Part shown: positions 30,831-48,722 of the stretch, in pieces | Layout of the letters: each line of letters begins with the position of its first letter | How positions within the stretch are numbered: the first letter of the stretch is position 1 | Assembly (NCBI RefSeq): GCF_001590835.1 | Contig: NZ_LTAQ01000045.1 | Span: 229,006 to 293,005 of the forward strand | Direction of reading: 5' to 3' | DNA from: Bacillus gaemokensis | GTDB taxonomy: Bacteria; Bacillota; Bacilli; Bacillales; Bacillaceae_G | DNA length: 64,000 nt | Notes under the pieces: model-generated | Databases searched by the model: none | What the model was told of the DNA's origin: nothing | Seen by the model: the letters and a program-made list of their open reading frames with translations, nothing else | Program-made: the position numbers and the translations under genes

Positions 30831-31430
30831 CTATATTGTCGTACACCTCTGTTTAAATCGGTATCCATAACGTAGTTTATGACATAGATGCACTTTCTTA
30901 ATTTTCTTCTCAATTTCGTTTCCAAGAACTTTCGCTTTTGGTAACCAACAATAAAACGTTGAACGTGGAAATTCTAACACTACGCATAGTTCCTTTACTG
31001 TCATTTCAGTTCTTAATTCCTTCCATAACTTAGCGATAATACTTGGTTTTAACCCCTTTCGATTTCCAGGTACTTTCCCAAAACAAGTAGTTTAGCCTTC
31101 AAGTGTTTATTCTCTAATCGTAGCTGTTCTATTTCACTCAGCTCTTTAGGCCCTTCCCCATAGGGATATTGTTTTCCCGCAGGCTGTTGGAAACGATATA
31201 TTTGATCCATGCGATACCATTTCATCACCCTTTTAATTTGACTTACATTTTTAACACTTAATTTCTCCATAATCGTTCGATTGGAATAACCTTCTTTCTT
31301 CATTTCGATTACTTTCCAATTTACTTCTTCTGGATAATGTAATGAAAAACACCTCTTTAATTCACAGTTTTATTATGCGAATTAAAGAGGTATTTTGTTC
31401 AAGTTCCACTAATTGGGTTCACTTTAATAG
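30831..31430 (-). mobile_element. Truncated IS3-family element (orfA plus start of orfB)
   Basis: orfA (31049-31303 and an open but start-less lead to about 31350) encodes a helix-turn-helix transposase subunit (YSNRTIMEKLSVKNVSQIKR, then a leucine-zipper LRLENKHLKAKLL). In the -1 frame, orfB begins (GLKPSIIAKLWKEL, VKELCVVLEFPRSTFYCWL, HKLRYGYRF) and stops at 30831 before the catalytic domain. The outer end near 31395-31430 carries a hairpin ACCTCTTTAATTC/GAATTAAAGAGGT and AAGTTCCACTAATTGGG. The catalytic half may be the fragment at 32676-33090, now in the opposite orientation. Confidence 0.75.
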
Positions 31431-31532
31431 TCAAGGAGCTTTCTTAATGAAATGGAGTAAGAAATTCCTTTTTATCATACAAGTTTATCATTATTTATGA
31501 TGTGGCTCACCTCGTTGTATTTAAGTGAGGTT

Positions 31533-32144
31533 TTAAGATTTTACTAAGTAGTAAAAGTAACTCTTCCAAGTATGATTAATAGAAAGATTCCTACTTAAAG
31601 ATCCGTCTTTTCCGTTTTCACCAAGTACAATATTACCTTTAACGTAATCGAACCTTTCATATTCAACATTATAATTTGGAATACCACAAGGCAGAAATGT
31701 TTCAATTTTTAAAGCTTCACCATTCTTTAAAACACCGTATTCGTTTACCAATTTTCCATTTTTGTCTTTTTCAAAATCATATTCATAAAACTTAATTTTT
31801 CTAATCGGCTCAGAAGATACAAAATAAATTGATTCTTCGAGGTTATCACCTAACTCTAACGTATCTATTATTCTATACTTTTCAATATCACTTTTATAAG
31901 AAACTTCCACAACTTCTTTTAAAGTAAATTCCGTCTTTTTAATTGCAAACAACTTACCAATAATATAAGCAATGAAAACAACTATGGTAGTTATCGATGA
32001 CATAAAACCTATTATTGCTACTAAATTTAATTCTTTAAATTCATTTTTAAGTTTATCTACTATGGATTCCAAGCCTATATTACCAAGTAAGTAACCTAGC
32101 AAAAATACTGATAAAATTATTAGTACATTTATAATACTTTTCAT
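31533..32144 (-). CDS. Hypothetical membrane protein
   Basis: 203 residues, not recognised. Two N-terminal helices (INVLIILSVFLLGYLLG, about 5-21, and VAIIGFMSSITTIVVFIAYIIG, about 42-63) precede a cytosolic or external domain of 135 residues. AGGGGG precedes the ATG. Isolated between IS fragments, with no neighbour suggesting a role. Confidence 0.65.
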   Translation of the reverse strand: MKSIINVLIILSVFLLGYLLGNIGLESIVDKLKNEFKELNLVAIIGFMSSITTIVVFIAYIIGKLFAIKKTEFTLKEVVEVSYKSDIEKYRIIDTLELGDNLEESIYFVSSEPIRKIKFYEYDFEKDKNGKLVNEYGVLKNGEALKIETFLPCGIPNYNVEYERFDYVKGNIVLGENGKDGSLSRNLSINHTWKSYFYYLVKS

Positions 32145-32529
32145 GTAATCATCCCCCTAAAAATACACCTCTCATATAATATAGTTTAACTATACAACAT
32201 AAAAGGTGCTTTTGCCTCGTCCCATCTTAATGGTTCTTTTCATAATAGACAATCAAGTGCTTTGAGTTAGTAATTGTTTAGTTTTATAAGTATCTTTAAG
32301 TTTTTTCAATAGGAATGTCTTATGACGATGGTATGATAGCCTACACGCATATTAACAAGCATAACACTTAAACCAACCAACTTGTGCAATCTCTTAAGTT
32401 TATTCTTCCTGCTATGTTTATACTCTCTACCCTGTAAAATATCATTGTGACACTTTTTCATACTTTTGTATAAGAATTCATGTTTCTTTTTTCTTACAAC
32501 ATCATTGATATAGTTTTACTAAAAAATAA
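32145..32529. other. Gap with an unassigned open stretch
   Basis: On the minus strand about 69 codons (roughly 32300-32510) are open and basic (NDVVRKKKHEFLYKSMKK) but without a credible start or RBS. They may be debris. Nothing else was seen. Confidence 0.3.
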
Positions 32530-32675
32530 AGTCTGACCCTTTACAAAGAATCAGACCTCCCAAAATATTTATTTCTAAAGATTTTCTAATCGAGATTTAA
32601 TACTCTTCCAGTGATTTTTCACTTGAGTTTCCATAAGGTTAATTGAATTTGATTCTTCATCAAAAACAACTGTAA
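32530..32675 (-). pseudogene. 3-prime end of an unidentified gene with its terminator
   Basis: Up to the junction near 32675 a minus frame reads VVFDEESNSINLMETQVK and KNHWKSIKSRLENL, ending TAG at 32575-32577. Seventeen bases on is a terminator (GGTCTGA/TCAGAC, 32534-32557, with a T-run). The upstream part is replaced by a transposase fragment. The parent family is not recognised. Confidence 0.45.
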
Positions 32676-33090
32676 AAGAGCGTACAAATCTACTAGAACG
32701 GGACTTTTCTACAATGACAATTAATAAAAAATGGGTATCAGATATCACCTATATTCACACGCAAAAAGATGGCTGGTGTTACCTGGCATCTTTGATGGAT
32801 TTGTATTCTAAGAAAATTATTGGATATTCATTTTCACGAAATATGGCAACGAGTCTAGTAGTAAAAGTACTAAAAAACGCTTACTATGTTCAAAAAACAT
32901 CAGAATGTCCCATTCTTGCTGGCTTAGGAACACAATATACAAGTCAAGAATTCCAAACCTTACTCGCGAGTTATAAAATCAAGCACTATTTCAATACATT
33001 GAAGGATGGTATAATTCCAAGAAGATTCATAGTAGTATTGATTACACAACTTCCCAAGCAATAGAAGATCTGGCTAACAAAGTAGCTTAG
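32676..33090 (+). pseudogene. IS3-family orfB catalytic-domain fragment
   Basis: Reads LLERDFSTMTINKKWVSDIT then YIHTQKDGWCYLASLMDLYSK, the first DDE aspartate region of an rve integrase core, and GLGTQYTSQEF, where the second aspartate is Gly. After KHYFNTLKDG the frame breaks, and an out-of-frame YNSKKIHSSIDY ends at TAG 33088-33090, so the glutamate region is deleted. No start or terminal repeats. Inactive. Confidence 0.75.
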
Positions 33091-33271
33091 ATTTAACTTT
33101 CCTGTACCCAAAATATTGACTCAATTCCATGAATGCTACTGACGATAATGAAAATAATTACGTTAAATATAGAATATATTGTTTTATTTCTTTTTAAAAC
33201 CTTTACAATATTGCTTTTTATAATCTAAAAAACTTTCGAAAGACGACTATAAAGACTATAAATATATTAAA

Positions 33272-33290
33272 GGACGAAATTTATTCGTCC
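33272..33290 (-). terminator. Terminator overlapping the end of the first McrC-like gene
   Basis: GGACGAA (33272-33278) pairs with TTCGTCC (33284-33290); the stop codon lies in the loop. Confidence 0.55.
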
Positions 33291-34546
33291 CTTTTTCTAT
33301 CATCTAAATAATCTAGTAATTCCTGTTTAACGTTACCTTTTTCATTCTGTACATACCAATACATTGCATAGAATGCATTTAAATTAAATGAATAAATTTC
33401 ACCAAATTCACTCTCTTTCCTGTTTACAGAAGATGTACCATGTTTTAGAAGATTTGTTTTCCTATCCCCATCTGGTGACGGGAACACGAAAACATTGTAT
33501 ATTTTTTTAAATTTAGAATCATCTATAGACTTAGCATAAAACAATTGTTTTACAATATCCTTCCATCCCGGCAAATTGTTTATGCCATCATAGGATCGAT
33601 AATACTTAGCATCTATAATATATAGATTATTTAAATTATCTTCTGTTAATATATCTGGTATCTGTTCTGTCTCATGAATTTCACTATTAACCTTCCAATA
33701 TGGTTTAGGGAGTAAATATTTAAGGTTTGCATTATCCTCAAACAATTGTTTACATATAACTTCCCAAATGTATTGATAATATTTTGTATATAGTAATTGA
33801 AAATCACTCTTCCCTGTTGCTTTTAATTTATTATTAATATAATTTAACAGCATTTTATATAGATTTATTTCTTTTTGATTGAAAGTAACTCTTAAAGCAT
33901 TATTAAGAATAAATCTCATTCGTTCATAAGTATATTGATTATCTAGAAGATTAGAGGAATGTTTAATTTTAAAATTTAATAGCCATCCATACTCTTCTTC
34001 AATATCTTTTAAAATAAGATATTGAACAGTAGTTATTTCATTATTTAGGCTTCTCAAAGATTTTATACTTATTGTATCTAAGTATAAAACCTTACCATTA
34101 ATAATATAAGGAGTAGTTTCTTTGATAGTTTTACTCCAATTTATTTTCGCATCACCATTAAATTCCTTCTTTTTGAATTCTCTTTTAATTAATCCATACT
34201 TTTTATAATCTTCAACTATCCAATTAATTAATGATAGGAAGCTATTATCTTCATTATTTTCTCCAAAATTAATATGGAATTTTTGTATAGATTTTTTATT
34301 ATACTTTAATAGAGCTTTAAACAGTATTTGTGCAACGAAATAATTTTGACTAGTATCATTACTTTTAAATATACCTTTAGGGAAAATTACAAAAACATTT
34401 TGTTGACTAACTAAAAACCCTGTAATTTTAAACTTTATATAATCATTTTCTTCCTCGCATAATCCTTGCTTAAAAAAATAATTTGGAATTTTCACAGATA
34501 CTTTTTCTGGTTTTAATTCTGTGAAAAAATATACTTTATTCTCCAT
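33281..34546 (-). CDS. McrC-like restriction subunit 1 (LlaJI R2 type)
   Basis: 421 residues. An N-terminal region with McrC-like DTISIKSL and NYIN segments is followed by a PD-(D/E)XK nuclease core near the C-terminus: Asp298 in QIPDIL, Asp312 and Lys314 in LYIIDAKYY, and Gln334 in DIVKQLFYA. This is the nuclease partner of the McrB-like GTPase encoded 18 bases upstream, as in LlaJI and BsuMI systems, where the pair cleaves DNA not protected by the cognate cytosine methylases. It is a diverged paralogue of the protein at 42271-43536 of the same length. Confidence 0.88.
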   Translation of the reverse strand: MENKVYFFTELKPEKVSVKIPNYFFKQGLCEEENDYIKFKITGFLVSQQNVFVIFPKGIFKSNDTSQNYFVAQILFKALLKYNKKSIQKFHINFGENNEDNSFLSLINWIVEDYKKYGLIKREFKKKEFNGDAKINWSKTIKETTPYIINGKVLYLDTISIKSLRSLNNEITTVQYLILKDIEEEYGWLLNFKIKHSSNLLDNQYTYERMRFILNNALRVTFNQKEINLYKMLLNYINNKLKATGKSDFQLLYTKYYQYIWEVICKQLFEDNANLKYLLPKPYWKVNSEIHETEQIPDILTEDNLNNLYIIDAKYYRSYDGINNLPGWKDIVKQLFYAKSIDDSKFKKIYNVFVFPSPDGDRKTNLLKHGTSSVNRKESEFGEIYSFNLNAFYAMYWYVQNEKGNVKQELLDYLDDRKRDE

Positions 34547-34564
34547 TATTAAGAGTGCCTTTCC

Positions 34565-36364
34565 TTACAAATTATCCGGTGGACTTGATTGATTATCTTG
34601 TTCAGAATTATTTTGATTTACACTTGTATCAGTATGTGTATCATCTTCATCATTTGCTGCTTGTACTTGTTGTAACTCCCCATTATCTTCATCTGTACTA
34701 TTTAGATCTGCTTCACTATTCGTATCCTGTTCAGGCTCAGTTTCTGTATCAACTTCAGTACCGTTATTATTCCTATTTAGATCGTCAACTAATTGTGTAG
34801 TTAATGTTTCGTGTAAGGCCTCTACAAATATTGCTTCTCCATCTTCAAAAGCTTTACATAATAGAGAGAACTGTCGATAATCTTTTTTAAATAAAGAATT
34901 TCTGTCTATTCTCGCAATATCATCCCATAGATATATAAATAACTTTTTGTAATAATCATATTGTTCTTCTTTGTCAAACCATCTCTCTGCTTCTTCCCTT
35001 CTTAGAAAGTACGGACCAATCAGTCTATCTTCATTGACTTGTAAATACTGATTTTCAGATAAATATGTATTTAAAGTTGTAATAAAGTTTTTAGCAGAAA
35101 TAAACTTATTATTATATTTAAAATATATAGAATCATGCCATTCATCAAATTCAATTGGTACGTATTGAATATTCCATCTCCTTTTAAAAGCTGTATCCAT
35201 CTGGAATACTCCTTGATCTGCACTGTTCATTGTTGCAATTAAATTTAGGTTAGGCGGTAGCTTTATCTCTTCTAATTGAATGTGTAATAGACTTTCATTA
35301 ATATAATTAAGTATTTCTTCATTTTCGATTCCATAATCGCTAAAGCCTTCTATATTCCTGTCTAATATTTGAAATACATCACCAAATACAGCTGCTGTAT
35401 TTGCACGGTTTATTTCTTCAATTATTAACGTGTATATTTTAGAAGGATTTGAATACGCTAACTGAAGAATTTTTGTAAAAGGTCCGGGTGTAAACGTATA
35501 TTTAACTCCATCTGTAGGATCATTTACAGGTCTTAAACTACCAATAAATTCATTGTAAGTATATTCTGGATGGAATGTTACACGTTTTGATTCTGTTGAA
35601 CCTTCAAAATTTTCCTTTATCCAATTACTTTTACCAGTTCCTGGGGAACCTAAAACTATTAGATTCTTTGCTCCTGTGCTTTGAAAATATGTAGAAGGAA
35701 CAGGTGTATTAGATGAAATATTATATAATCCCCTACCTAGATTTTTAGCATCACCCAAAGGTTGAGGTATAAATAATAATAAGTATCTAAATGATGATTT
35801 GTATTTCAGTAAAATCATATAATCATTTTCAAATTGTGTGGATTTTAATTCCATAAAAAATTGTCTTTGACTAAGGTCATGAATAAATTCTTTACTAGCA
35901 AACATTAAACGAGATCCTGATGTTTCTTTTGCAGATAACTGTAATACCATTGATCCACCTAATGAGTATTCATTTTTTAAGACATCAACTTTTGATGTAT
36001 CATAATATCCAGTCGGAATATTTTTTAACATTAGATGGATAGTTATGAAAGGTATTGTAACAGGAATAGTTAAAGCATAATTCATATTTTCAATATTACT
36101 TAGTAAAGGTGGTAAAATTCCAAATGTTGATTTAGGTAAAAAGAAATGCGTAACCCCATTACCGTTTGTTAAAGTAGGATCAACTCTTGAACACAATGAA
36201 TTATTTAATACCCCTGTATGATCATCATGTGAGTTTCTTCTTAATACTTCAGTTTTCGCTATTTTTTTTACTACAATAGCATCGTAATCACTTACTTTTA
36301 AATCTAACGAGAAACCTTCGTCTCTATAAATCGTATTAACTTCGTCTAAGATATTTTTTAACAT
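34565..36364 (-). CDS. McrB-like AAA+ GTPase 1 (LlaJI R1 type)
   Basis: 599 residues from ATG 36364 (AGAGGTG upstream; the frame's ATG at 36385 lacks an RBS). An N-terminal target-recognition region (about 1-225) precedes the motor: Walker A GSPGTGKSN (239-247), RVTFHPEYTYNEF, Walker B TLIIEEINRAN (about 312-322), the McrB-type signature ATMNSADQGV (about 377-386) and FKRRW. The last 70 residues are an acidic Asp/Glu/Asn/Gln tail absent from the second copy. An IS3-family element ends 32 bases upstream of the start, so the native promoter is probably displaced. Confidence 0.88.
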   Translation of the reverse strand: MLKNILDEVNTIYRDEGFSLDLKVSDYDAIVVKKIAKTEVLRRNSHDDHTGVLNNSLCSRVDPTLTNGNGVTHFFLPKSTFGILPPLLSNIENMNYALTIPVTIPFITIHLMLKNIPTGYYDTSKVDVLKNEYSLGGSMVLQLSAKETSGSRLMFASKEFIHDLSQRQFFMELKSTQFENDYMILLKYKSSFRYLLLFIPQPLGDAKNLGRGLYNISSNTPVPSTYFQSTGAKNLIVLGSPGTGKSNWIKENFEGSTESKRVTFHPEYTYNEFIGSLRPVNDPTDGVKYTFTPGPFTKILQLAYSNPSKIYTLIIEEINRANTAAVFGDVFQILDRNIEGFSDYGIENEEILNYINESLLHIQLEEIKLPPNLNLIATMNSADQGVFQMDTAFKRRWNIQYVPIEFDEWHDSIYFKYNNKFISAKNFITTLNTYLSENQYLQVNEDRLIGPYFLRREEAERWFDKEEQYDYYKKLFIYLWDDIARIDRNSLFKKDYRQFSLLCKAFEDGEAIFVEALHETLTTQLVDDLNRNNNGTEVDTETEPEQDTNSEADLNSTDEDNGELQQVQAANDEDDTHTDTSVNQNNSEQDNQSSPPDNL

Positions 36365-36405
36365 TATTTCACCTCTAATAGTCATTTTGGTATGTCAACA
36401 CGAAA

Positions 36406-37229
36406 CTAGACAATTTTTTTAAGGTGTTCCTGCCTGTACTGAACAGGGCTCAAATAGCCTAGTGTTCCATGGATTCTAATATTGTTAAACCAGTTTACGT
36501 AGTCGTTCAATTCTAAGGTCAATTCTTCTAAACTTGCGAAATGACGACCGCGAACGAATTCTGTTTTAAATATTTTGTAAGTTGCTTCCGCTACTGCATT
36601 ATCGTATGGACAGCCTTTTGCACTTAATGAACGCTTGATTTGGAAGGTCTCTAACGTGTCATGAATCAGCTTGTTTTTGAATTCATTTCCTCGGTCTGTA
36701 TGAAATAAGGTAATCTGATTCAAATTTGTTTTCACCGTTGCGAAACAAGCTCGGCATCTTTCTTTTGGCCTGCACTATGTCCTATGATTTCTCGATTAAA
36801 GAGATCAACTAATAAACATACGTAATTCCACTTTTTGTTCACACGGACGTATGTTAAATCACTTACGACTACAGCCAGTTCTTCTTTCTGGTTGAACTGA
36901 CGATCGAGTTCGTTTGAAATTTTTTCTTCATTACAGCTAACTCTCTTCGGCTTAAATTGTGCAATCGTATAGTTAGATACTAAACCTTGGTTCTGCATGA
37001 TTCGTCCAATAAGGCGACGTGAAATCACATATCCTAACTTCTTTAATTCCACTTTTATCTTTCGTGTTCCATAGTTCTGACGGCTCTCGCGGAAGATTTC
37101 TTTTACGAGTGGTGACAATTCATCTACTGTATCTTGTGCTTGTTTTTCCTCATAATAATACGTTGCTCTTGATAATTGTAGGACATTGCACATTGCTGAT
37201 ATCGAGTATTTATGTAGGTTATTCTTCAC
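36406..37229 (-). pseudogene. IS3-family transposase OrfB, frameshifted
   Basis: Two frames join near 36732: the upstream part has RRLIGRIMQNQGL and the first DDE Asp in VVSDLTYVRV, ending at DAELVSQR; the downstream part resumes at MKTNLNQIT with the second Asp in HTDRGNEFKN and the Glu in NAVAEATYKIFK. All three catalytic residues survive, but a small deletion at about 36735 (in sequence matching LVSQ-FATV) puts them in different frames, so no full OrfB is made. Confidence 0.85.
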
Positions 37230-37234
37230 TACTT

Positions 37235-37498
37235 TTACTTTCGTCCTAGTATCAGCGCCGCTTGCTTTAAAATATCAATTTCCATAAGAAGCTGTTTGTT
37301 TTGTTTTCTCAACGCTTCCAATTCTAGCTGTTCAGCGGTCTTATTATCTTTCTCTTTAACGAGCCAGACGTATGATTTTGATTGATCCACCGATCCAATG
37401 ATGATGTCTTTCCTTGGTTTACCATTTTGATACAGTTGAACCATTTGGTGCTTTAATTCCGCTGTAAAGGTTCTTCGTTCTCTTTTCTTTTTCGTCAT
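37235..37498 (-). CDS. IS3-family transposase OrfA
   Basis: 87 residues: helix-turn-helix (FTAELKHQMVQLYQNGKPRK, about 10-29) and a leucine zipper (LELEALRKQNKQLLMEIDIL) ending QAALILGRK, the usual place where IS3 elements slip -1 into orfB. OrfA alone cannot transpose the element. Confidence 0.85.
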   Translation of the reverse strand: MTKKKRERRTFTAELKHQMVQLYQNGKPRKDIIIGSVDQSKSYVWLVKEKDNKTAEQLELEALRKQNKQLLMEIDILKQAALILGRK

Positions 37499-37566
37499 AG
37501 TAGATTCTCCTCAAGTATATTGGTTGTAGTCTACTTGACCTTAATTTTTTGTCTAGTTCAGTGTAA

Positions 37567-37980
37567 CCTATCCATTTTCCAGATTGGGTCTGCAGAAATT
37601 GTATAGTAAAATTTTCCTTATGTCTATAAAAATGACTATAAAATTAAACATGTGAAACCATCGATCTATCAACATCTATCCTAAATTAAACTAATTAAAA
37701 ATTGACAGTATACAGACTCGACAAATTAGAGGGCGCTTGTTTGATCCCAGTTAGGACTATTAGTACAAGAATTGTGTCAAATCAATGGTCGATAATAAAA
37801 AATTCTAGAATTAAACGAATAACAGGGACTAATTTTATTAATTGTAACACCAAGAAATCTCGTCCTCATCTTTTCAGTAGTAATATTAGAATTTTTATGT
37901 AGGGAAACACTTTGTTTGGGTGTACAAAAAAGCAGCAAATTAAATTGCTGCTTTTTCATATTATACTTATAAAATTTATA
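37567..37980. other. Gap between IS element and methyltransferase gene
   Basis: No gene supported. A terminator lies at 37931-37952 (AGCAGCAA-ATTAAA-TTGCTGCT with A/T runs on both sides), ending the leftward methyltransferase operon before the IS. The rest may be the former promoter region of the first McrB-like gene. Confidence 0.55.
37931..37952 (-). terminator. Terminator of the methyltransferase operon
   Basis: Perfect eight-base stem AGCAGCAA/TTGCTGCT with six A and five T residues at its edges, 29 bases past the methyltransferase stop. Confidence 0.8.
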
Positions 37981-39447
37981 TTAATTTTCATGTATATATT
38001 TTAATAAAGCATTGGCAATTCCTCTACTCATAAGTGGTGGAACTGAATTACCAATCTGCATATAAGTTTTTGTAAAAGAGCCCTTAAAAAAATAATCATC
38101 CGGAAAAGATTGAACTCTAGCAGCTTCCCTAGGTGTTAATCCCCTAGCTTGCGTCGGATGAATATACATATTGCAATCAAATTTCATATGTGCTGTAATC
38201 GTTTTACACAATTCTTTATACACCAATTTAAAATACTTATCTTTAAAAATATGATTCCTATTTTTATAAGGCATAATATCAGCTATTTTAGGATCATCAG
38301 ATTTATCTCCTTGATGCATACGTCCAAAAATTTCAATATCCCTATCATTATTATAACGGGCTTTATGATTAAAAATTATATTGCTGTCTTTCTCATTAAT
38401 CAAAGATAAGTATTCATTTTTTTGATAATTAGGATGTACAGCAACTTTCATACCACTTTCCTCTGTATCTAAATCCGTTGCATTTTTAATTCGCAAAGCT
38501 TCTAGTTTAGGAAGATCACTTATCGCATCTTCAAGAACAAATCTTTTTGATGAGAAATTATTTTCAATGTTAATTTCATCAAAAATAGAAGCATTATGAA
38601 CTCCTAACCTATTCCCAATAAAAATCAACCTTTTTCTATTTTGAGGAACTCCAAAGTCAGCAGAATTTAGTATTTTATAATGCACATCATAACCAATAGA
38701 AGCAAAATCTTCTACAACTTGTGCTGCTACTGAAAGCATTCCAGTTACATTTTCCATTACGAAAAATTTTGGTTGTATATTCCCTACAACTTTTACAAAG
38801 CTTTTATATAATTTATTACGCGGATCATCAATTAGTCTTTGGCGGTTGGCAGTACTAAACCCTTGACAAGGTGGTCCACCTATTACTACATCTACTTCCT
38901 TAAATCTCAATTTACATTGTATCTCATCAATAATATTATTGATATCATCCTCATAAATAAACTCGTTTGGAATTTCTGGATGATTAAAGGAATATGTCTC
39001 TATGCAAGCTGGTTCAATGTCATTTGCAAACGCAATTTTAAACCCCACCTGCTTAAACCCTAAAGACATTCCTCCTGCACCACAAAATAAATCAACTAGT
39101 ATAGGTTTTTCAGCTATTTCTTCCTCTTTCATCAAATTTGATCTACAATATTCACAATACTTATATACTGAGCATTGCTGATCTTTATTATGGTTAATTT
39201 TGCTTATCAATGAAAAGAATTCATTAGAACTAACATTCAAACTATCTTCAACAAAAACCAACAATGGATTAAATTCACTTCTATTTTCAATTATTCCTAA
39301 TTCCAACAGGATATTAATAACTTCTGCTTCCCTCAAGTTACTTGGATTGGATTTTGTTTTTTCCAAAACACCGATCAATTCTTTTAATTCAGTAATAAAC
39401 GCTTTTTTTAATTTATTATTGGTAATTTCCATGAACTTGTAATTCAT
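37981..39447 (-). CDS. DNA (cytosine-5) methyltransferase 2
   Basis: 488 residues from ATG 39447 (AGGTGA six bases upstream; GTG at 39456 is inside the RBS). A 115-residue N-terminal extension with a cysteine cluster (Cys92, 98, 101) comes before the catalytic domain: motif I LFCGAGGMSLGF, motif IV GGPPCQGFS with the catalytic Cys, motif VI MENVTGM, VIII QNRKRLIFIG, IX RGLTPREAARVQSFP and X QIGNSVPP. The variable target-recognition region lies between VIII and IX. Its gene overlaps the first methyltransferase gene by 32 bases. It resembles M2 of LlaJI-type systems. Confidence 0.92.
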   Translation of the reverse strand: MNYKFMEITNNKLKKAFITELKELIGVLEKTKSNPSNLREAEVINILLELGIIENRSEFNPLLVFVEDSLNVSSNEFFSLISKINHNKDQQCSVYKYCEYCRSNLMKEEEIAEKPILVDLFCGAGGMSLGFKQVGFKIAFANDIEPACIETYSFNHPEIPNEFIYEDDINNIIDEIQCKLRFKEVDVVIGGPPCQGFSTANRQRLIDDPRNKLYKSFVKVVGNIQPKFFVMENVTGMLSVAAQVVEDFASIGYDVHYKILNSADFGVPQNRKRLIFIGNRLGVHNASIFDEINIENNFSSKRFVLEDAISDLPKLEALRIKNATDLDTEESGMKVAVHPNYQKNEYLSLINEKDSNIIFNHKARYNNDRDIEIFGRMHQGDKSDDPKIADIMPYKNRNHIFKDKYFKLVYKELCKTITAHMKFDCNMYIHPTQARGLTPREAARVQSFPDDYFFKGSFTKTYMQIGNSVPPLMSRGIANALLKYIHEN

Positions 39448-40396
39448 TAATATCACCTACTTGTCCATTAATTGTGTTCAATATTTGCATTGCGAGGTGA
39501 TATCCTACATTAACAGTTACAGCATTTCCAAACTGTTTATAAGCTTGACTATCAGAAACCACTATTTCATAGCTTGGATTTTCTGGGAAACCTTGTAAGC
39601 GAGCACATTCCCTCGGAGTAAGCCGTCTAATTTTCGTTTTCCCAGCCTCTTCTGCTAGTTGACTAGGCTGTGTCACATAATTATCTTGACTAGCTCTATG
39701 CATTTTTGCCATAGTTGCACATAAAGGACGAGCAACACTTAAATCAATTTCAGCTTTTGCTTTATAAGTCTTTGTTCCTTCTGCAAGTATAGTTGGCAAT
39801 ATCTTATGAGATAAATAATATTTACTTGGTACATTTTGTTCTAGAACATCTTGTAATGTTTTAACTAGAGGAATTGGTTGAGGAAATTCAAATTGTACAT
39901 TTAAATCTTCTCTAAAACAGACAATAAAAATACGATTACGCGTTTGAGGAACCCCATAATCAGCACTATTTAATACTTGAGCATGAATATTATAGCCAGC
40001 TTCTTGTAACCTTTCTGTTATTACCGCATAAGTTCTGCCATTATCATGTGTCGTTAAAGTTCTAACGTTTTCTAAAACAACAATTTTCGGTCTGTGATGT
40101 AAAATAATTTGTTCAATATTAAAAAACAAAGTTCCCCTTGTATCATTAAATCCTTGTTGTTGTCCCATCATGCTAAATGGTTGGCAAGGAAACCCACCTA
40201 TTAGCAGATCATGACTAGGTATCTCTGTTACCTCTATGTCATTTAAATCCCCATGAACAATATGTCTTCCAATGTTATGTTCATATGATTGAACAGCAAA
40301 TTTATCAAAATCATTAGCCCAAATTACATTAAATCCCGCTTGTATAAAGCCTAAATCTAATCCTCCACAACCACTAAATAAAGACACCACATTCAT
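39416..40396 (-). CDS. DNA (cytosine-5) methyltransferase 1
   Basis: 326 residues. All C5 motifs in order: I VSLFSGCGGLDLGF, IV GGFPCQPFSMMG (catalytic Cys), VI LENVRTL, VIII PQTRNRIFIV, IX RRLTPRECARLQGFP, X YKQFGNAVTV. The short target domain (about 185-240) differs from that of methyltransferase 2, so the two probably modify different sequences or the two strands of one asymmetric site. Its ATG overlaps the stop of the upstream ribbon-helix-helix gene (ATGA), showing translational coupling. Confidence 0.93.
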   Translation of the reverse strand: MNVVSLFSGCGGLDLGFIQAGFNVIWANDFDKFAVQSYEHNIGRHIVHGDLNDIEVTEIPSHDLLIGGFPCQPFSMMGQQQGFNDTRGTLFFNIEQIILHHRPKIVVLENVRTLTTHDNGRTYAVITERLQEAGYNIHAQVLNSADYGVPQTRNRIFIVCFREDLNVQFEFPQPIPLVKTLQDVLEQNVPSKYYLSHKILPTILAEGTKTYKAKAEIDLSVARPLCATMAKMHRASQDNYVTQPSQLAEEAGKTKIRRLTPRECARLQGFPENPSYEIVVSDSQAYKQFGNAVTVNVGYHLAMQILNTINGQVGDINELQVHGNYQ

Positions 40397-40575
40397 TCGA
40401 TTTCACCTCTCCTATGAATATAATCAATTATCCAATCCCTAATTACAATCGATGCATACTCATTATTGTTATGAAGCATATTCATAAATTCTTCTTTTAA
40501 TTGAGGTTCAATCGTTACTTCTATCTTTGCAGTTTTCTTTTTCCCTTTCGGTCTTCCTACAGATTTATCACTCAA
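40393..40575 (-). CDS. Small ribbon-helix-helix-type regulator
   Basis: 60 residues: a basic arm (GRPKGKKKTAK), one beta strand (KIEVTIEPQ) and two helices (LKEEFMNMLHNN and ASIVIRDWIIDYIHRR), the size and order of a CopG/Arc-type DNA-binding dimer. It is the first gene of the methyltransferase operon and is coupled to it by a four-base overlap. It probably controls its own promoter, where an inverted repeat lies, and may time methylase against nuclease expression, taking the place of a C protein. Function is inferred. Confidence 0.75.
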   Translation of the reverse strand: MSDKSVGRPKGKKKTAKIEVTIEPQLKEEFMNMLHNNNEYASIVIRDWIIDYIHRRGEIE

Positions 40576-40611
40576 ATTGATTACTCCCCTAAAAATCGAA
40601 AATACGTTCTT

Positions 40612-40640
40612 ATATTAACACATTTACATCAGGGTGTAAA
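40612..40640 (-). promoter_or_regulatory. Methyltransferase operon promoter with overlapping inverted-repeat operator
   Basis: Read leftward: TTTACA (-35, 40640-40635), 17-base spacer, TAATAT (-10, 40617-40612). ATTTACA-TCAGGG-TGTAAAT (40622-40641) is an exact inverted repeat covering the -35 and part of the spacer, in the region divergent to the second McrB-like gene. A bound dimer would block the methyltransferase operon and might also affect the rightward genes. Confidence 0.65.
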
Positions 40641-40745
40641 TTTATAAAAACATAAAAAAATTGTAGAAATATCACAAAAAATGCAGCCTATTATGATATT
40701 TTATTTATAGTGACTTTACAAATTCCGATACAATTGGAGGAAAAC

Positions 40746-42284
40746 ATGAGTATTACATTTAACGAAGGACTACAACATTTAGAAGGATTCATACAACAAA
40801 CGATTCCAGCCTTATCTCATAGAATCAAATTATCAGAGGATATATACGAAGGAATTTTCATAAAGAAATTAGCCAAAAGCAATACTTTAACAGGAAATAG
40901 CGGAAAACAAAAACACATTGCTCTAAGTAACGAAAAAGAAATCAATTTTTTCCCTTATCTTGATAATTATGTACAAATGATTGTTCAAAATGAATATCCA
41001 ACAGAAGCATTTAAAAGAAGATATGGCGTTAAAATTAACATCCGATTGTTTAAAGAGAATTTAGAATATATTGACGGGAAAGAACATAAAGATTCTCATT
41101 GCTTTACTACTCACTATCTAAGTCGTGGAGGCAATCAATCCGAGTTAGGATCAATGAGTACTGATTCTGAAGAATTTACAAATTTCAGACATTTATTAGC
41201 TGAAGGTGATACTTTGGTATTCCTTAAACATAAAGAAAGCTTTAGTTATGACACTTTACTCATCAAAGATTCAGACTCCTCTAGTTTAATATCAATATTT
41301 GATAAGATTTTTATTGAATACTCTGCTTTTAGGGCAACGAGAAACCGTTCTAGCCTCGTCGAATCCTCTATGATAGTTATAGAGGACAGCGAAACAAAAT
41401 CCTACGGTAAAGCGATTAATTTAATTGTATACGGTGCTCCAGGGACTGGAAAAAGCCACTACTTAAAAACAAAGTATGGAGAGGGTTGTCCACGTGTCAC
41501 ATTTCATCCAGAATACACTTATCAGGATTTTGTAGGATGTCTAAAACCCAAAAATGAGAATGATAAAGTAACTTATAAGTTCTCACCTGGTCCTTTTGCA
41601 AAAATTTTAAAAGAAGCATATCAAGATTTAGGTAATGGCTCAAAAACTTTAATCATTGAGGAAATTAACAGAGCTAACACTGCTGCAGTATTTGGAGACC
41701 TATTCCAATTGTTAGACAGAAATGGCGAGGGAATCAGTGAATACAGTATTGAAAATGATGACTTACTTACATATTTGAATGAAGATACCAATTTAGACCT
41801 AAAAAACATCAAGATTCCTAATAACTTAAATATCGTTGCTACTATGAATAGTGCAGACCAAGGGGTCTTTTTAATGGACTCCGCTTTCAAACGCAGATGG
41901 AAATTCAAATATATTCCTATTATATTTGATGAAAATGATGATATTTGCACAACAGAACTTAGCTATGCAGGAAAAACATTTACTTGGAAACAGTTTATTG
42001 AACCAATAAACCTACAACTGGCTAAATTAAAAGTAAATGAAGATAAACATATTGGCCCCTATTTTATGAAAAAAGAAGAAATTGAAGATAGAGAAGTATT
42101 TGCATCAAAATTGCTAATGTATCTTTGGGATGATGTACTGAGGCACCAAAGAGATAAAATATTTAGACAGGACCAATACCTTATATTTTCTCAGCTACTG
42201 ACAGGTTTCATAAATAACGAAAATGTTTTCAAAAAAGAAATCTTTAACCTAACTACAGAACCGACGACTGATGCAGATGAGTGA
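40746..42284 (+). CDS. McrB-like AAA+ GTPase 2 (LlaJI R1 type)
   Basis: 512 residues from ATG 40746, which has GGAGG five bases upstream (an ATG/TTG frame opening at 40710 has none). Target-recognition-like N-terminus (1-220), then Walker A GAPGTGKSH (230-238), RVTFHPEYTYQDF, Walker B TLIIEEINRAN (301-311), ATMNSADQGV (365-374) and FKRRWKF (381-387). The motor is very close to GTPase 1, but the N-terminal halves differ strongly, suggesting different DNA targets, and the acidic tail is absent. It overlaps the McrC-like gene that follows by 14 bases. Confidence 0.9.
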   Translation: MSITFNEGLQHLEGFIQQTIPALSHRIKLSEDIYEGIFIKKLAKSNTLTGNSGKQKHIALSNEKEINFFPYLDNYVQMIVQNEYPTEAFKRRYGVKINIRLFKENLEYIDGKEHKDSHCFTTHYLSRGGNQSELGSMSTDSEEFTNFRHLLAEGDTLVFLKHKESFSYDTLLIKDSDSSSLISIFDKIFIEYSAFRATRNRSSLVESSMIVIEDSETKSYGKAINLIVYGAPGTGKSHYLKTKYGEGCPRVTFHPEYTYQDFVGCLKPKNENDKVTYKFSPGPFAKILKEAYQDLGNGSKTLIIEEINRANTAAVFGDLFQLLDRNGEGISEYSIENDDLLTYLNEDTNLDLKNIKIPNNLNIVATMNSADQGVFLMDSAFKRRWKFKYIPIIFDENDDICTTELSYAGKTFTWKQFIEPINLQLAKLKVNEDKHIGPYFMKKEEIEDREVFASKLLMYLWDDVLRHQRDKIFRQDQYLIFSQLLTGFINNENVFKKEIFNLTTEPTTDADE

Positions 42285-43536
42285 GCCTAAATTTTTTGTA
42301 GAATATGAATGGAGTAACCTATGTACACAAATCCCCAAAAAATTCTATGAGCTAGGCCTATGCGAAAAACTTAAAAATCAAATAAGGTTTAAATTTGTTG
42401 GTTTTGGCACTGATAAAGACAACCTCTTTATAGTATTCCCTAAAGGTTTTCAACTATCTAAAGATATTAATGTTAATAAGCAAAAAGCTAAATTATTATT
42501 AAAGACTTTAATTAAATATGAAAAATCCACACTTGAAAATCACCTTCTTGGTGACGGTAATGATGTGATAGCAGAAGCTTTCTCTAGCATAGCTCGGCTT
42601 GTCGAAGATTACCAAAACTTCGGAATTATTAAATTTCAAAAGAAAAAACAAGAAATTAACGGCAAAGGGCGCATAAATTGGGGAAAGACAATGAAACAGA
42701 CTCAACCTTACATACAAGGAGACTTTCCCCTATACTTAGATTTGATAACTAGCAGAACTCAAATTTTTTCTGAACATGAAATTTCTTATATTCATGAATA
42801 TGTGCTTCATCAGATTTCCTTACAATTCGGATGGTTATTTGATTTTAAATTCTATCCAAATAACATGGAAGAGTTATTTAACATAGAACATATGATTCAC
42901 ATATTGACAAATGCACTTAGTCAAACTTTTGTAGAAAGAGAAATTCAGCTTTTTCAAGAATTAATCAGCTACTTAAAAAAAATCAGCCAAGAAGATTCAA
43001 GTGCACTTTCAATATATGCCACACCATATTTCCATAACATTTGGGAACTAATGTGTGCTCAAATATTCGAAGATGATGCGTCGCTTCATAGGCTTGTACC
43101 TAATCCATACTGGATAGTAGATAATAGGGAATATGAAACAAAACAAATACCTGATATACTTTTCAAAAAAAATCATGAACTATATGTATTAGACGCAAAA
43201 TACTACAGAATTAAAGAGGGCTTAGGTAAATTACCAGGATGGAAAGATATTGTTAAACAATTATTTTATGCTCAATCATTTAAAAATAATGGATTTGCAG
43301 AAAATAGTAATACCTTCCAAGATATCCATAACATATTTTTATTTCCTTCCACCTGTGCAGAAACAATTAGACATTTCGGTTTCTCCGCTGTAAAAGGATT
43401 AGAAGATAAACATACAGGTTTTGGAAAGATATTCGCTTTTGAAATAGATGTCGAGTTTGCTTTAAACACTTATGTATATGAAAATGAAACTGGTCTGCAA
43501 GATAAGCTAATAAATAACATAGTCAAGCTCAGCTAA
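42271..43536 (+). CDS. McrC-like restriction subunit 2 (LlaJI R2 type)
   Basis: 421 residues. The PD-(D/E)XK nuclease residues are Asp295 in QIPDIL, Asp308 and Lys310 in LYVLDAKYY, and Gln330 in DIVKQLFYA, so the active site is complete. Segments VFPKGF, INWGKTMKQTQPYI and PYWIVDN are shared with the first McrC-like protein in the same order. The start overlaps the GTPase gene, with no separate RBS, so translation is probably coupled. A strong terminator follows. It cuts DNA together with GTPase 2. Confidence 0.9.
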   Translation: MQMSEPKFFVEYEWSNLCTQIPKKFYELGLCEKLKNQIRFKFVGFGTDKDNLFIVFPKGFQLSKDINVNKQKAKLLLKTLIKYEKSTLENHLLGDGNDVIAEAFSSIARLVEDYQNFGIIKFQKKKQEINGKGRINWGKTMKQTQPYIQGDFPLYLDLITSRTQIFSEHEISYIHEYVLHQISLQFGWLFDFKFYPNNMEELFNIEHMIHILTNALSQTFVEREIQLFQELISYLKKISQEDSSALSIYATPYFHNIWELMCAQIFEDDASLHRLVPNPYWIVDNREYETKQIPDILFKKNHELYVLDAKYYRIKEGLGKLPGWKDIVKQLFYAQSFKNNGFAENSNTFQDIHNIFLFPSTCAETIRHFGFSAVKGLEDKHTGFGKIFAFEIDVEFALNTYVYENETGLQDKLINNIVKLS

Positions 43537-43551
43537 AGTTCTCAGTAGAAT

Positions 43552-43590
43552 ACATTAAGGGGTAGCATTCTTAATGCCATCCCTTAATGT
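43552..43590 (+). terminator. Terminator after the second McrBC-like pair
   Basis: ACATTAAGGG (43552-43561) and CCCTTAATGT (43581-43590), with inner GC pairing. Confidence 0.75.
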
Positions 43591-43649
43591 TTAAAAATCA
43601 TTTATAGGTTTCTCCTCATCATTTTATAAATTCAAACTATCACAAAAGA

Positions 43650-43679
43650 AAAAATCATACGCTTACTGTATGATTTTTT
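43650..43679 (-). terminator. Terminator of the TerD/TerA-like gene
   Basis: AAAAATCATAC and GTATGATTTTT (43650-43678), loop GCTTACT. T-run in both directions. Confidence 0.75.
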
Positions 43680-43690
43680 CTTCTTGCACT

Positions 43691-44896
43691 TTATCCTTTA
43701 TAGTACTTCTCATACCCCTCTTCACTCTTAAACTCAACCGGCCCAACATCCATAAGAAATCCCCCATCCTCATATAACAGTGGTGAAGCCTCAGAATGAT
43801 CTTGAGAATAACTTTCCACGTGAGAGATTTTCATTTCGTTTTGATTTGTAAAGTCAATATGGGCAATACATACCCAGTAAGCATTGTCGTTTATTTCCAA
43901 TAAAGGAGCTGTTATGACATTTCCCATGTGGTTATCTACAACCGCTTTTGCCCTCATAGAATAGAAGCTACCTATTCCGTTTTCGACGGCACTATATGCA
44001 GCAAATAAAACATACTTTAGCGCTTCTGGTCGATAAATACGAATCGTTTCTTTACCTGGCTCTTGTGCATCTCCATCAATTACAATATACGGCGACGCAT
44101 TAGATGAACCTAAATTTCTATAATAAATCTTCCCTATTTCTCCAGCCTTTGTCACATAGAAACAATATAGATCGAGATCCTTATTTGTTTCCCATTCAAG
44201 AGTCGCTGTCACCATCTTAGATTTTTGTATATTAATAGATTGTTTTTTCTTTAATTCAACCTTCATAGGTGCTTGTATCGGTGTTGGAGTAGGAATTGTT
44301 TTTTTCTCTATAGGAGGAGGTACTTGCTCTTCATCATCAGTAACCTCTATCCCGAAATTTTCACATAGCGCTGCTAATCCGCCAAAGTATCCCGATCCAA
44401 TCGGATTGAATTTCCATTCTCCTGCATGTCGATACAATTCTCCTACAATAATGGCACTTTCATCTGTGAAGGAGGAGATAATAGGAAAATTTGCGATTTC
44501 TACTTTCGTTTGTTCATTTTTAATTCCCAATTGAAAGTGAGTAACATCTCGGAAGAAATGTTTCTTTTCCTCTGCGTGATGAATTGTAATTGAAAACACA
44601 ATTTTTTGGACTTCATTTTTCATACGAGTAAGATCTAGCAAAAACTCTTGTTTATTCCCACCTGAAGCATCTTCATTTAATTTGATTGATTGGCAGCTAG
44701 AATATGGTTGTCCATAGAATACAAAGTCTTCTTCTTTTGTAATTTTCCCATTCATCCCTACTAGGAAAGCAGACGCATCTACTTCCATATTCACCGGAGC
44801 ATTCCAATCTAATCCGACTAGTAAATTACCCACTCCCGGATGAGCCTTTGTAATATCTGTCTTTTGTCCCCTTACTAAAGTATGTGTCATCATCAT
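43691..44896 (-). CDS. TerD/TerA-family stress protein
   Basis: 401 residues. The N-terminal TerD domain (about 1-190) has LVRGQKTDITKAHPGVGNLLV, shown by motif GQKTDI, NEDASGGNKQEFLLDL and the calcium-binding-type IVVGELYRHAGEWKF region. A Pro/Thr-rich linker (about 205-225) leads to a second domain resembling the TerA C-terminus (LDLYCFYVTKAGEIGKIYY, VIDGDAQEPG). Such proteins occur in tellurite/chemical-stress clusters and often in defence islands. Here it stands alone next to the restriction genes, so its role is open. Confidence 0.82.
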   Translation of the reverse strand: MMMTHTLVRGQKTDITKAHPGVGNLLVGLDWNAPVNMEVDASAFLVGMNGKITKEEDFVFYGQPYSSCQSIKLNEDASGGNKQEFLLDLTRMKNEVQKIVFSITIHHAEEKKHFFRDVTHFQLGIKNEQTKVEIANFPIISSFTDESAIIVGELYRHAGEWKFNPIGSGYFGGLAALCENFGIEVTDDEEQVPPPIEKKTIPTPTPIQAPMKVELKKKQSINIQKSKMVTATLEWETNKDLDLYCFYVTKAGEIGKIYYRNLGSSNASPYIVIDGDAQEPGKETIRIYRPEALKYVLFAAYSAVENGIGSFYSMRAKAVVDNHMGNVITAPLLEINDNAYWVCIAHIDFTNQNEMKISHVESYSQDHSEASPLLYEDGGFLMDVGPVEFKSEEGYEKYYKG

Positions 44897-45087
44897 TCTC
44901 CCTTCTTACAAATTTCATATTTTTCTACACAATTTGATTATACCCTTGTTTTTCCAATTTCAGAGTATAAATATCAAGGTAATAATTTTTTAAAAAATCT
45001 ATATGACCTCATAAATTCTTTCCACAAAAATGAAATTTATAATTTTCACAACATATACTGTTTAAAAGCAAAAAAGGAAGTGATTCC

Positions 45088-45385: not shown

Positions 45386-46249
45386 CTATCTAAGTGCCTT
45401 AACATCTATCTTTCCTAAAACAACATCACTGTCTCTGTTAGAGGGGAAACCTGTAAATCCTGGTCTAGTTAAATAATTTCTCGTTGGATCATAATATACA
45501 CTTAATAGTCCCGTCAACAAATACTGGAATCCCAAATGCTGCTCACCCTCTTTATGCTTAAAATAAATATATTCGGCTACATCTCCCTTCTTAGGACGTC
45601 TTTTAAATATACTCCACTGATTAAAAGAGCCGATATACCCTATTAAATCATCAAACCAGTCGTCTTTATTTGAATATACTTCTTTTAATTTATCAAAAAT
45701 CCAGTTTTCTGTTTTTTTCTCTTTTTTCTCAAAGGAATCCATCGAAACTAATGCCAAAAAAGGTCCCCTAACTGCATGTCCATGATTATCAACACATCTA
45801 CATAACTTTGACGCCTCTTTTAGAGCCTTTACCTCATGTTTAATATCTGTATCATACAGATTTTTCTTAACAGAAATTATACCTACTACTCCTTCCGGTG
45901 GAGCAATTACATTATCACCGAACCTCTGAAAAATTGGATAATTAAAACTATCATACACAATAATATCTAGTTGAGTTGAATGTGCATCCACTTCATTTTT
46001 CCTGTTTTTGCATTTTAATTCAGTTTTCACGGCAGGTCGTAAAATAAATCCGGTCATGACTTCCAAGTTTCTTGGTAAATATTTTTTCAAGTATTCTCTA
46101 ATAAGATTTTCAACATATCTACCATCTTCTCCGTTATGTGCTGCTCCTTGTCTATCAATGGCTGGAATTAAAATTTGAAACTGTTTATAGGTTTCTAACA
46201 TGGCTTGCATTTCATTAGACCAATACTGTTGAATTCTTTTTCCGTCCAT
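45386..46249 (-). CDS. DUF6602-like protein, possible PD-(D/E)XK nuclease
   Basis: 287 residues from ATG 46249 (AAAGGA seven bases upstream; ATG at 46273 has none). After an N-terminal helical region comes GEDGRYVENLIREYLKKYLP, STQLDIIVYDSFNYP and PPEGVVGIISVKK, the Glu...Asp...(S)xK layout of DUF6602 proteins and related nuclease folds, although the usual Glu before xK is Ser here, so catalysis is uncertain. It sits among restriction and nuclease genes. A defence role is inference from context. Confidence 0.72.
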   Translation of the reverse strand: MDGKRIQQYWSNEMQAMLETYKQFQILIPAIDRQGAAHNGEDGRYVENLIREYLKKYLPRNLEVMTGFILRPAVKTELKCKNRKNEVDAHSTQLDIIVYDSFNYPIFQRFGDNVIAPPEGVVGIISVKKNLYDTDIKHEVKALKEASKLCRCVDNHGHAVRGPFLALVSMDSFEKKEKKTENWIFDKLKEVYSNKDDWFDDLIGYIGSFNQWSIFKRRPKKGDVAEYIYFKHKEGEQHLGFQYLLTGLLSVYYDPTRNYLTRPGFTGFPSNRDSDVVLGKIDVKALR

Positions 46250-46639
46250 ATTTAATTCCTTTCTATAAAGCAAATCTACTATTCACAAACAATCAAAACT
46301 CTTGCTTTGAAATCGATCTTATCTATACATAAAATCGGATTAGTTTTTCCAAATATCCACACCGTTAATCCAATCATTATAACCAGCTAATTCTTTCTCT
46401 CCTCTTCAAAAAAAGATTGCTAATACTTTCAATAATAAAGACGATTTACGATTAACTGTTTATAATTGAGATTTCAGGAAATAACATGAAACAACTATTT
46501 AATTATACAATAGCCCTTATTTCTTTTAAATCTATTTAAGTGATAATTCAACACTCACCTCTACTTACTAGCAATTAAACTAATGAGAAAAAGTAACATA
46601 ACCATCACACCAATAGTTAACGAAAGGGCTCGTATACTA
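46250..46639. other. About 390-base gap in the defence island
   Basis: AT-rich. A hydrophobic 14-codon stretch (VMVMLLFLISLIA, near 46565-46610, minus) has no RBS and is not called. No terminator was identified after the nuclease gene. Confidence 0.35.
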
Positions 46640-48526: not shown

Positions 48527-48722
48527 TTCTAACACCACCATTTATAAGATTATAAAACAAAAAGTTGTTATAACTGAATTATAACTTAAAATGTGGCACT
48601 ATTTACGTCGTATATCTCGCCTTTTATATCACTCTTCAAATATATTGGCAATTCAATATAAAATAGCAACCACCCAACAAATTCCACAACTCCAGTACAC
48701 CCCCAAACAAAAAAAGACCACC

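Follow-up and report, generated by a model that had tools for sequence, protein, structure and literature searches.

In BsuMI and LlaI an McrB-like motor and further restriction genes stand beside methylases; BsuMI is considered here through its gene organization. LlaJI, carried by the Lactococcus lactis plasmid pNP40 (NC_010901, locus L147), combines two C5 methylases, an AAA+ subunit R1 whose N-terminal half carries specificity and which is the sole specificity subunit, and a PD-(D/E)XK subunit R2, with the site GACGC/GCGTC (PMC1459862). The same source gives the BsuMI/LlaI cassettes three restriction open reading frames (ORFs) and a motor subunit of 337-343 amino acids (aa) without a long N-terminus, and describes the Type IV system McrBC as having no associated methylase and cutting methylated DNA (PMC1459862). 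A Clostridium cellulovorans system is another four-gene relative (PMC11779793); no paper recording its site was found in the literature search. According to the CoCoNuT census, predicted DNA methyltransferases frequently accompany McrB-like GTPases, and the methylase-associated McrBC branches are left there for later work; a methylase pair in shared use, exchangeable effectors or a layout with two slots were not seen described in it, and its main text names neither LlaJI nor BsuMI (PMC11090510). The island considered here lies in a 64-kb stretch of Bacillus gaemokensis DNA (contig NZ_LTAQ01000045.1; hereafter the window) and holds two motor-nuclease pairs around a single methylase pair. It is rather probably a LlaJI-like Type II island in which a chassis, made of a small regulator and the methylases M1 and M2, offers two effector slots and serves two restriction complexes. 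All coordinates are positions in the window unless a locus is named, and L- and G-numbers denote compared loci and genomes.

R1L-R2L (33281-36385, minus strand) and R1R-R2R (40710-43536, plus strand) flank M2 (37981..39456) and M1 (39416..40396). The minus-strand order is a 60-aa regulator-like ORF, M1, M2, an IS3-family insertion sequence (IS), R1L and R2L, while R1R followed by R2R runs on the plus strand, divergent from the regulator-like ORF. All six restriction and methylase ORFs are open over these spans. Both methylases match PF00145 (M1 at 321 bits, M2 at 248 bits) and contain the C5-methylase motifs searched for; M2 has an N-terminal extension of about 115 aa and M1 overlaps it by 41 nucleotides (nt). 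The nuclease subunits R2L (33281..34546) and R2R (42271..43536) match PF09563 RE_LlaJI at 163 and 179 bits, against a Pfam cut-off of 23.6 bits, and do not belong to PF10117 McrC; both are 421 aa long, they are 39% identical over 406 aa, and PD...DAK is present in both (QIPDIL/IDAK in R2L, QIPDIL/LDAK in R2R). In R1L (34565..36364, ORF to 36385) and R1R (40746..42284, ORF from 40710) AAA_5 is the sole Pfam family above cut-off, and each protein joins an McrB-like motor at its C-terminus to a distinct N-terminal half; among PDB sequences, solved McrB chains match R1R best. By eye, ribosome-binding-like sequences favour starts at 36364 for R1L, where an intact AGAGGTG precedes the ATG, and at 40746 for R1R. 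These data bear out the preliminary description, made from the DNA letters alone, in its central points: two complete motor/nuclease pairs on opposite strands around two cytosine methyltransferases, and McrC-like proteins of equal length with complete active sites. It had also called the motors near-identical in motifs, which is right for Walker A, Walker B, TMNSAD and AFKRRW, present in both, although overall identity is only 46% over 383 aligned positions, chiefly in the motor half. Three parts were overlooked in it: the decayed IS3-family element, the 60-aa regulator-like ORF and a conserved operator-like motif.

Like LlaJI, the window has paired C5 methylases, an RE_LlaJI R2 (in both copies) and R1 proteins that join an McrB-like motor to an N-terminal half. 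LlaJI itself, however, is one co-oriented M-M-R1-R2 cluster with one restriction pair, whereas in the window a divergent second pair and a small regulator-like gene are present; M1, M2, R1L and R2L do follow one another in that order, yet a hairpin and the IS interrupt them. Identities to LlaJI are 36-37% for the R1 motors, 24% for R2 and 24-28% for the methylases. With Type IV McrBC the window shares the AAA+ motor architecture, but here methylases adjoin and R2 is PF09563, not PF10117. The BsuMI-type label proposed earlier was rejected: the cassette of that type has three restriction ORFs and a motor of about 340 aa (PMC1459862), in contrast to the two-gene restriction units and motors of 524 and 606 aa found here. 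By its sequence the island is best classed as a LlaJI-like Type II variant and not as BsuMI-type.

M1 and M2 occur together in at least ten distinct loci (the window, L052, L056, L058, L059, L060, L061, L142, L143 and L144; L056 and L057 carry the same region), and in L153 a regulator-like ORF and M1 are followed by the contig end. Six M1 orthologs are 59-65% identical and six M2 orthologs 54-56%; M2 was also used to scan viral contigs, where six loci have best segments of 55-64% identity and, of the 80 best among 556 relatives, the next reaches 39%. In genome draws, M2 was matched at E 1e-100 or better in three of 398 genomes of a class-level draw (G426, G908, G1104) and in four of 397 of an order-level draw (G426, G455, G598, G619). 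G598 and G619, at 45-50% in M2, were rejected as group members, having no recognition-domain hit and no close M1.

In each of the ten loci a neighbouring effector has an N-terminal recognition domain of the R1R type, and among the loci examined this domain was not found in LlaJI-type R1 proteins beside other methylases; four genomes searched whole gave no further copy outside M1-M2 loci. In a phmmer search of 31 entries with the R1R N-terminal region, the seven M1-M2-linked entries held there rank first, all at 1.0e-6 or better except an HNH fusion of L060 (1.7e-5), followed by R1L (2.8e-4) and then L042 (0.012, under inclusion threshold). Identity of the R1R domain to the two R1 domains of L052 is 39% (R1b, over 155 aa) and 31%. 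A nine-row hidden Markov model (HMM) of the domain, which predates the retrieval of L142, L143 and L144, picks up the effectors of these loci (1.4e-19, 4.4e-65 and 9.6e-61) as well as R1L (3.8e-6), and nothing in L038 and L039. A twelve-row HMM, from which R1L was omitted, recovered from 2768 ORFs of 118 loci its own twelve proteins, together with copies on duplicate contigs; R1L follows at 1.4e-7 (0.0011 for its best single stretch), and the next value is 0.0048. Its seven hits among 2290 ORFs of later loci all fall on previously known contigs. At 30.6 bits the R1L domain outscores every one of 20,000 shuffles, the best of which reaches 13.6, and when 35 N-terminal regions were scored, 22 non-family ones stayed at or below 1.1 bits and four had no score. 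On this evidence the R1R domain is a clear member of the family and the R1L domain a significant but diverged one. The earlier statement that the N-terminal recognition halves differ is correct as to the divergence of R1L, but they are not unrelated, as the R1L domain belongs to the domain family of R1R. The R1R motor, for its part, is closest to that of L030 (55%), a locus whose methylases are 27-35% identical to those of the window and whose recognition domain scores -1.3 bits, so specificity parts and motor-nuclease parts recombine. Taken together, the comparisons indicate that the recognition domain goes with the methylases and not with the nuclease.

An AlphaFold2 model of the R1R domain is of fair confidence, with a mean predicted local distance difference test score of 78 and a predicted template modelling score of 0.80; a PDB search with the domain profile returned nothing better than E 1.3. 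The R1 domain of Helicobacter pylori LlaJI is reported as a B3 fold (PMC7680126). Plasmid and viral searches gave no match to the left domain, and the plasmids searched gave none to the right one.

The cutting part, as judged from its homologs, behaves as an interchangeable module beside a fixed methylase pair. Orthologous M1-M2 stand beside LlaJI-type pairs in the window (right and left), L061 and L052 (pair a), and beside McrBC-type pairs with PF10117 McrC in L052 (pair b), L058 and L060; the pair of L144 was assigned to the McrBC type through its R2, 48% identical to that of L052. In L059 (11495-12691) and L060 (1494-2627) an HNH domain is fused to the recognition domain, and L142 (10707-11867) encodes a 386-aa fusion of the recognition domain with a C-terminus that by eye resembles a PD-(D/E)XK nuclease, a part without a Pfam match above cut-off. 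L056 and L143 break off inside R1 or shortly behind it. Three loci, the window, L052 and L060, have two effectors that carry the recognition domain; they are three of the seven whose visible sequence extends 2.7 kb or more to each side of the regulator-M1-M2 core (these three, L058, L059, L142 and L144; the L058 contig ends in its R2). The slots of L060 are those of the window, one effector being divergent from the regulator and the other downstream of M2, while in L052 both restriction pairs lie upstream of the regulator; the downstream slot is used in L056, L058, L060, L061 and L143.

The HNH fusions of L059 and L060 are apparently motor-less cutters beside the same methylase pair. The HNH part of L060 resembles proteins on 1461 plasmid records, and the best of the ten matches listed (H48-H57) is annotated DUF3578, an McrB-type recognition domain, hinting at a wider swapping of HNH for motors.

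The small ORF (40393..40575, minus strand) stands directly before M1 and overlaps its start. In six other loci the ORF immediately before M1 is 48-55% identical to it, and another was recognized by eye in L153, so that 8 of 11 loci (the ten M1-M2 loci and L153) have such an ORF; the protein is called ribbon-helix-helix-like only putatively, since Pfam RHH_9 matches it solely below its cut-off. In all eight loci with this regulator a core ACCnTGAT lies 23-67 nt upstream of its start, as ACCCTGAT in seven loci and ACCATGAT in L153; most loci also keep the flanks TTTA-n and nn-AAA, which are incomplete in L056 and L060. In the window the motif (40622..40640, minus strand) sits in the divergent promoter, and ACCCTGAT occurs once in the 64 kb. 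No such core lies within 400 nt upstream of the small ORF that precedes M1 in any of the three loci where this ORF is a different one (L058, L142, L143); none of 29 further LlaJI-type loci, scanned over their whole length, contains the longer form TTTAnACCnTGAT, and a scan of viral contigs for a long form of the motif gave 0 matches. The conserved motif fits an operator overlapping a promoter. Its interpretation as the methylation site was rejected, because L058, L142 and L143, all of them M1-M2 loci, lack it upstream of M1, and an operator is the better reading of a motif that is missing where the small ORF differs. As it lies between divergent genes in the window, L052, L060 and L144, one regulator could time both sides.

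The favoured reading assembles these parts into a two-slot system. The small ribbon-helix-helix-like protein would lead M1-M2 and would probably be an autoregulator acting at the ACCCTGAT-centred motif, and M1 and M2 would between them methylate the two strands of a single site, presumably asymmetric as in LlaJI. At this site, when unmethylated, the N-terminal domain of R1R would bind, the AAA+ ring would translocate and R2R would cut; the right pair is very probably co-specific with M1-M2. In the downstream slot R1L-R2L would form a second complete complex, its specificity domain being a diverged member of the same family. With moderate confidence, this left pair probably goes back to the same specificity, and M1-M2 probably protect it too; it would depend on them while using, most likely, the same or a relaxed or altered site. 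Its specificity may be altered, or the pair may be damped by the IS just upstream, which possibly reduces its expression. The idea, raised in the preliminary description, of one methylase pair shared by two complexes stands as an architecture, given that among the loci examined the R1R domain is seen solely beside M1-M2 and that L052 and L060 are double as well, but the link of the left pair is weaker, a matter of remote homology.

Several observations weigh against the sharing of M1-M2 by both pairs. By HMM alignment the R1L domain keeps F, D, L and K but lacks Q, H and R, retaining four of seven family-invariant residues (one other alignment retains H too, five of seven at best), and a loop is remodelled; in hhalign only 55 R1L columns, its last part, align with the family, at a probability of 77.5%. 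Third-position GC of the right pair (25.4%) differs from that of M1-M2 (18.9%; z 3.3), which points to separate histories, and codon-usage distances of R1L (0.84-0.92 to M1-M2, 0.88-0.94 to the right pair, 0.84-0.96 overall) give no clean grouping. Finally, in none of 26 other genomes that encode a LlaJI-type R2 do two LlaJI-type pairs share a locus. The divergence of the R1L domain is also what would be expected if two systems had merged, the left pair having its own site and being protected by a methylase elsewhere or silent, with only the right pair working with M1-M2. The third-position GC difference between left (17.0%) and right pairs (z -4.6) and the IS3-family sequence that borders the left pair at either end (at its left end by eye) are consistent with such a history. 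Nevertheless, the left pair matches M1-M2 in third-position GC (z -1.1), the closest relatives of its recognition domain are M1-M2-linked ones, and it occupies the downstream slot that other loci also use; a merger is judged unlikely, if still worth serious consideration. In codon usage R2L is at a distance of 0.75 from M2 versus 0.96 from the right pair.

The IS between R1L and M2 raises the question whether the left pair is a relic, severed from its promoter and kept by chance. The best pair of IS ends (36394..37568, 3-bp target repeat TAT; alternatively 36388-37574 with TTT and a slightly poorer terminal match) puts the element 29 nt ahead of the start that R1L probably uses, M2 is followed by a terminator-like hairpin (37923..37960, minus strand; fold z -4.4, 0/200 shuffles equally stable), and a 10/12 promoter-like match lies beyond the IS at 37598-37626. 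The hairpin was not listed by a consensus terminator scan, and promoter-like matches in the region are no commoner than in shuffles (61 found, 65.1 expected). Both left ORFs, moreover, are full length with the motifs searched for, though the IS transposase frame is already broken, and the element, which encodes integrase and HTH_21 domains, lies in the same orientation, so read-through into the left pair is possible; that the pair is a mere leftover seems improbable. Hardly more credible than a guess is the formation of mixed rings by R1L and R1R, which would make the two pairs one composite enzyme: the motors are similar in sequence and share their signature motifs, but the effectors of L052 and L060 differ in nuclease type, so ring mixing is not a general rule. 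The McrB-like motor and altered recognition domain of the left pair might also suggest a modification-dependent, Type IV-like enzyme that backs up the right pair by attacking phage DNA in which other modifications are present; its nuclease, however, is LlaJI-type and not PF10117 McrC, and its domain family is seen solely in methylase-linked systems, which makes this very improbable.

The trees neither show a recent duplication of the pairs nor tell duplication from merger: a careful R2 tree joins R2L with R2R at a support of 64/83 only, joining R1L and R1R in the R1 tree is not rejected (approximately unbiased test, p 0.496), and a FastTree R2 tree instead places R2R with L030 at 0.61. A composite transposon carrying the left pair is likewise unsupported, since no long direct repeat that could represent a second IS copy was found in 31000-45000.

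The 26 genomes come from R2 matches counted at E 1e-10 or better: 6 of 398 in the class draw, 1 of 4 in the family and 20 of 397 in the order draw, the last including the family's one. With none of them having it, the exact double-LlaJI layout has been seen solely in the window, the draws having covered neither its own genome nor its genus; G560 has two LlaJI-type pairs on different contigs. A search with a flanking gene for the nearest genomes reached 75% identity at best and no close kin. The preliminary description had proposed to look for the two-pair layout elsewhere, and two effectors, of different nuclease types, were seen in L052 and L060. Megablast against plasmids matched 270 records, none with one place covering 80% of the query, and the ten matches listed overlap the IS; the second place on an Acinetobacter plasmid (H4) was discarded, the stretch fetched containing no second pair. 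The viral-contig scan with R2 found no relatives.

In the usual view of restriction systems one mark has one matching cutter. Here one methylase pair is linked to two cutters at three loci, and to three cutter types and a putative fourth across ten loci. If the chassis reading is true, a single methyl mark lets a cell operate two kinds of cutting machine, and the window is a case with two motor-nuclease complexes. More broadly, there is perhaps an even chance that these loci represent a class of Type II systems: the regulator and the methylase pair would form a fixed chassis, tied to a recognition domain of its own, that works with one effector or two, of exchangeable kinds (LlaJI, McrBC, HNH or putative PD-(D/E)XK). 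No description of two effectors sharing one methylase pair was found in the literature searched, mostly without subscription papers, which is weak evidence of absence. Such loci would offer a natural experiment on the swapping of specificity domains between nuclease machines, and they raise the testable question whether phages that block or escape one effector are better resisted when another acts under the same mark.

Some further features accompany the island. R1L ends in an acidic low-complexity tail of about 70 aa (34565-34777, noted by eye and below the cut of the tail listing), which R1R does not have; in the same listing acidic tails are also seen in R1a of L052 and in the R1 proteins of L041 and L032. 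Elements similar to the IS occur on Peribacillus, Priestia and Enterococcus plasmids, and to the left of R2L (31049-33064) fragments resembling an IS3-family element were noted by eye, which no long DNA repeat connects with the IS of the island. L001 (16311-19300) contains a distant second McrB-like motor, 24-28% identical to the R1 proteins of the window and without a recognition-domain match, together with a partner gene, near a Virgibacillus LlaJI-type pair. To the right of the island lie a TerD gene and candidate defence genes, and beside it are two more candidates for defence genes, one encoding a NucC/PD-DExK-like protein (45386-46273) and one a match to the PADLOC candidate PDC-S26 (46640-48541).

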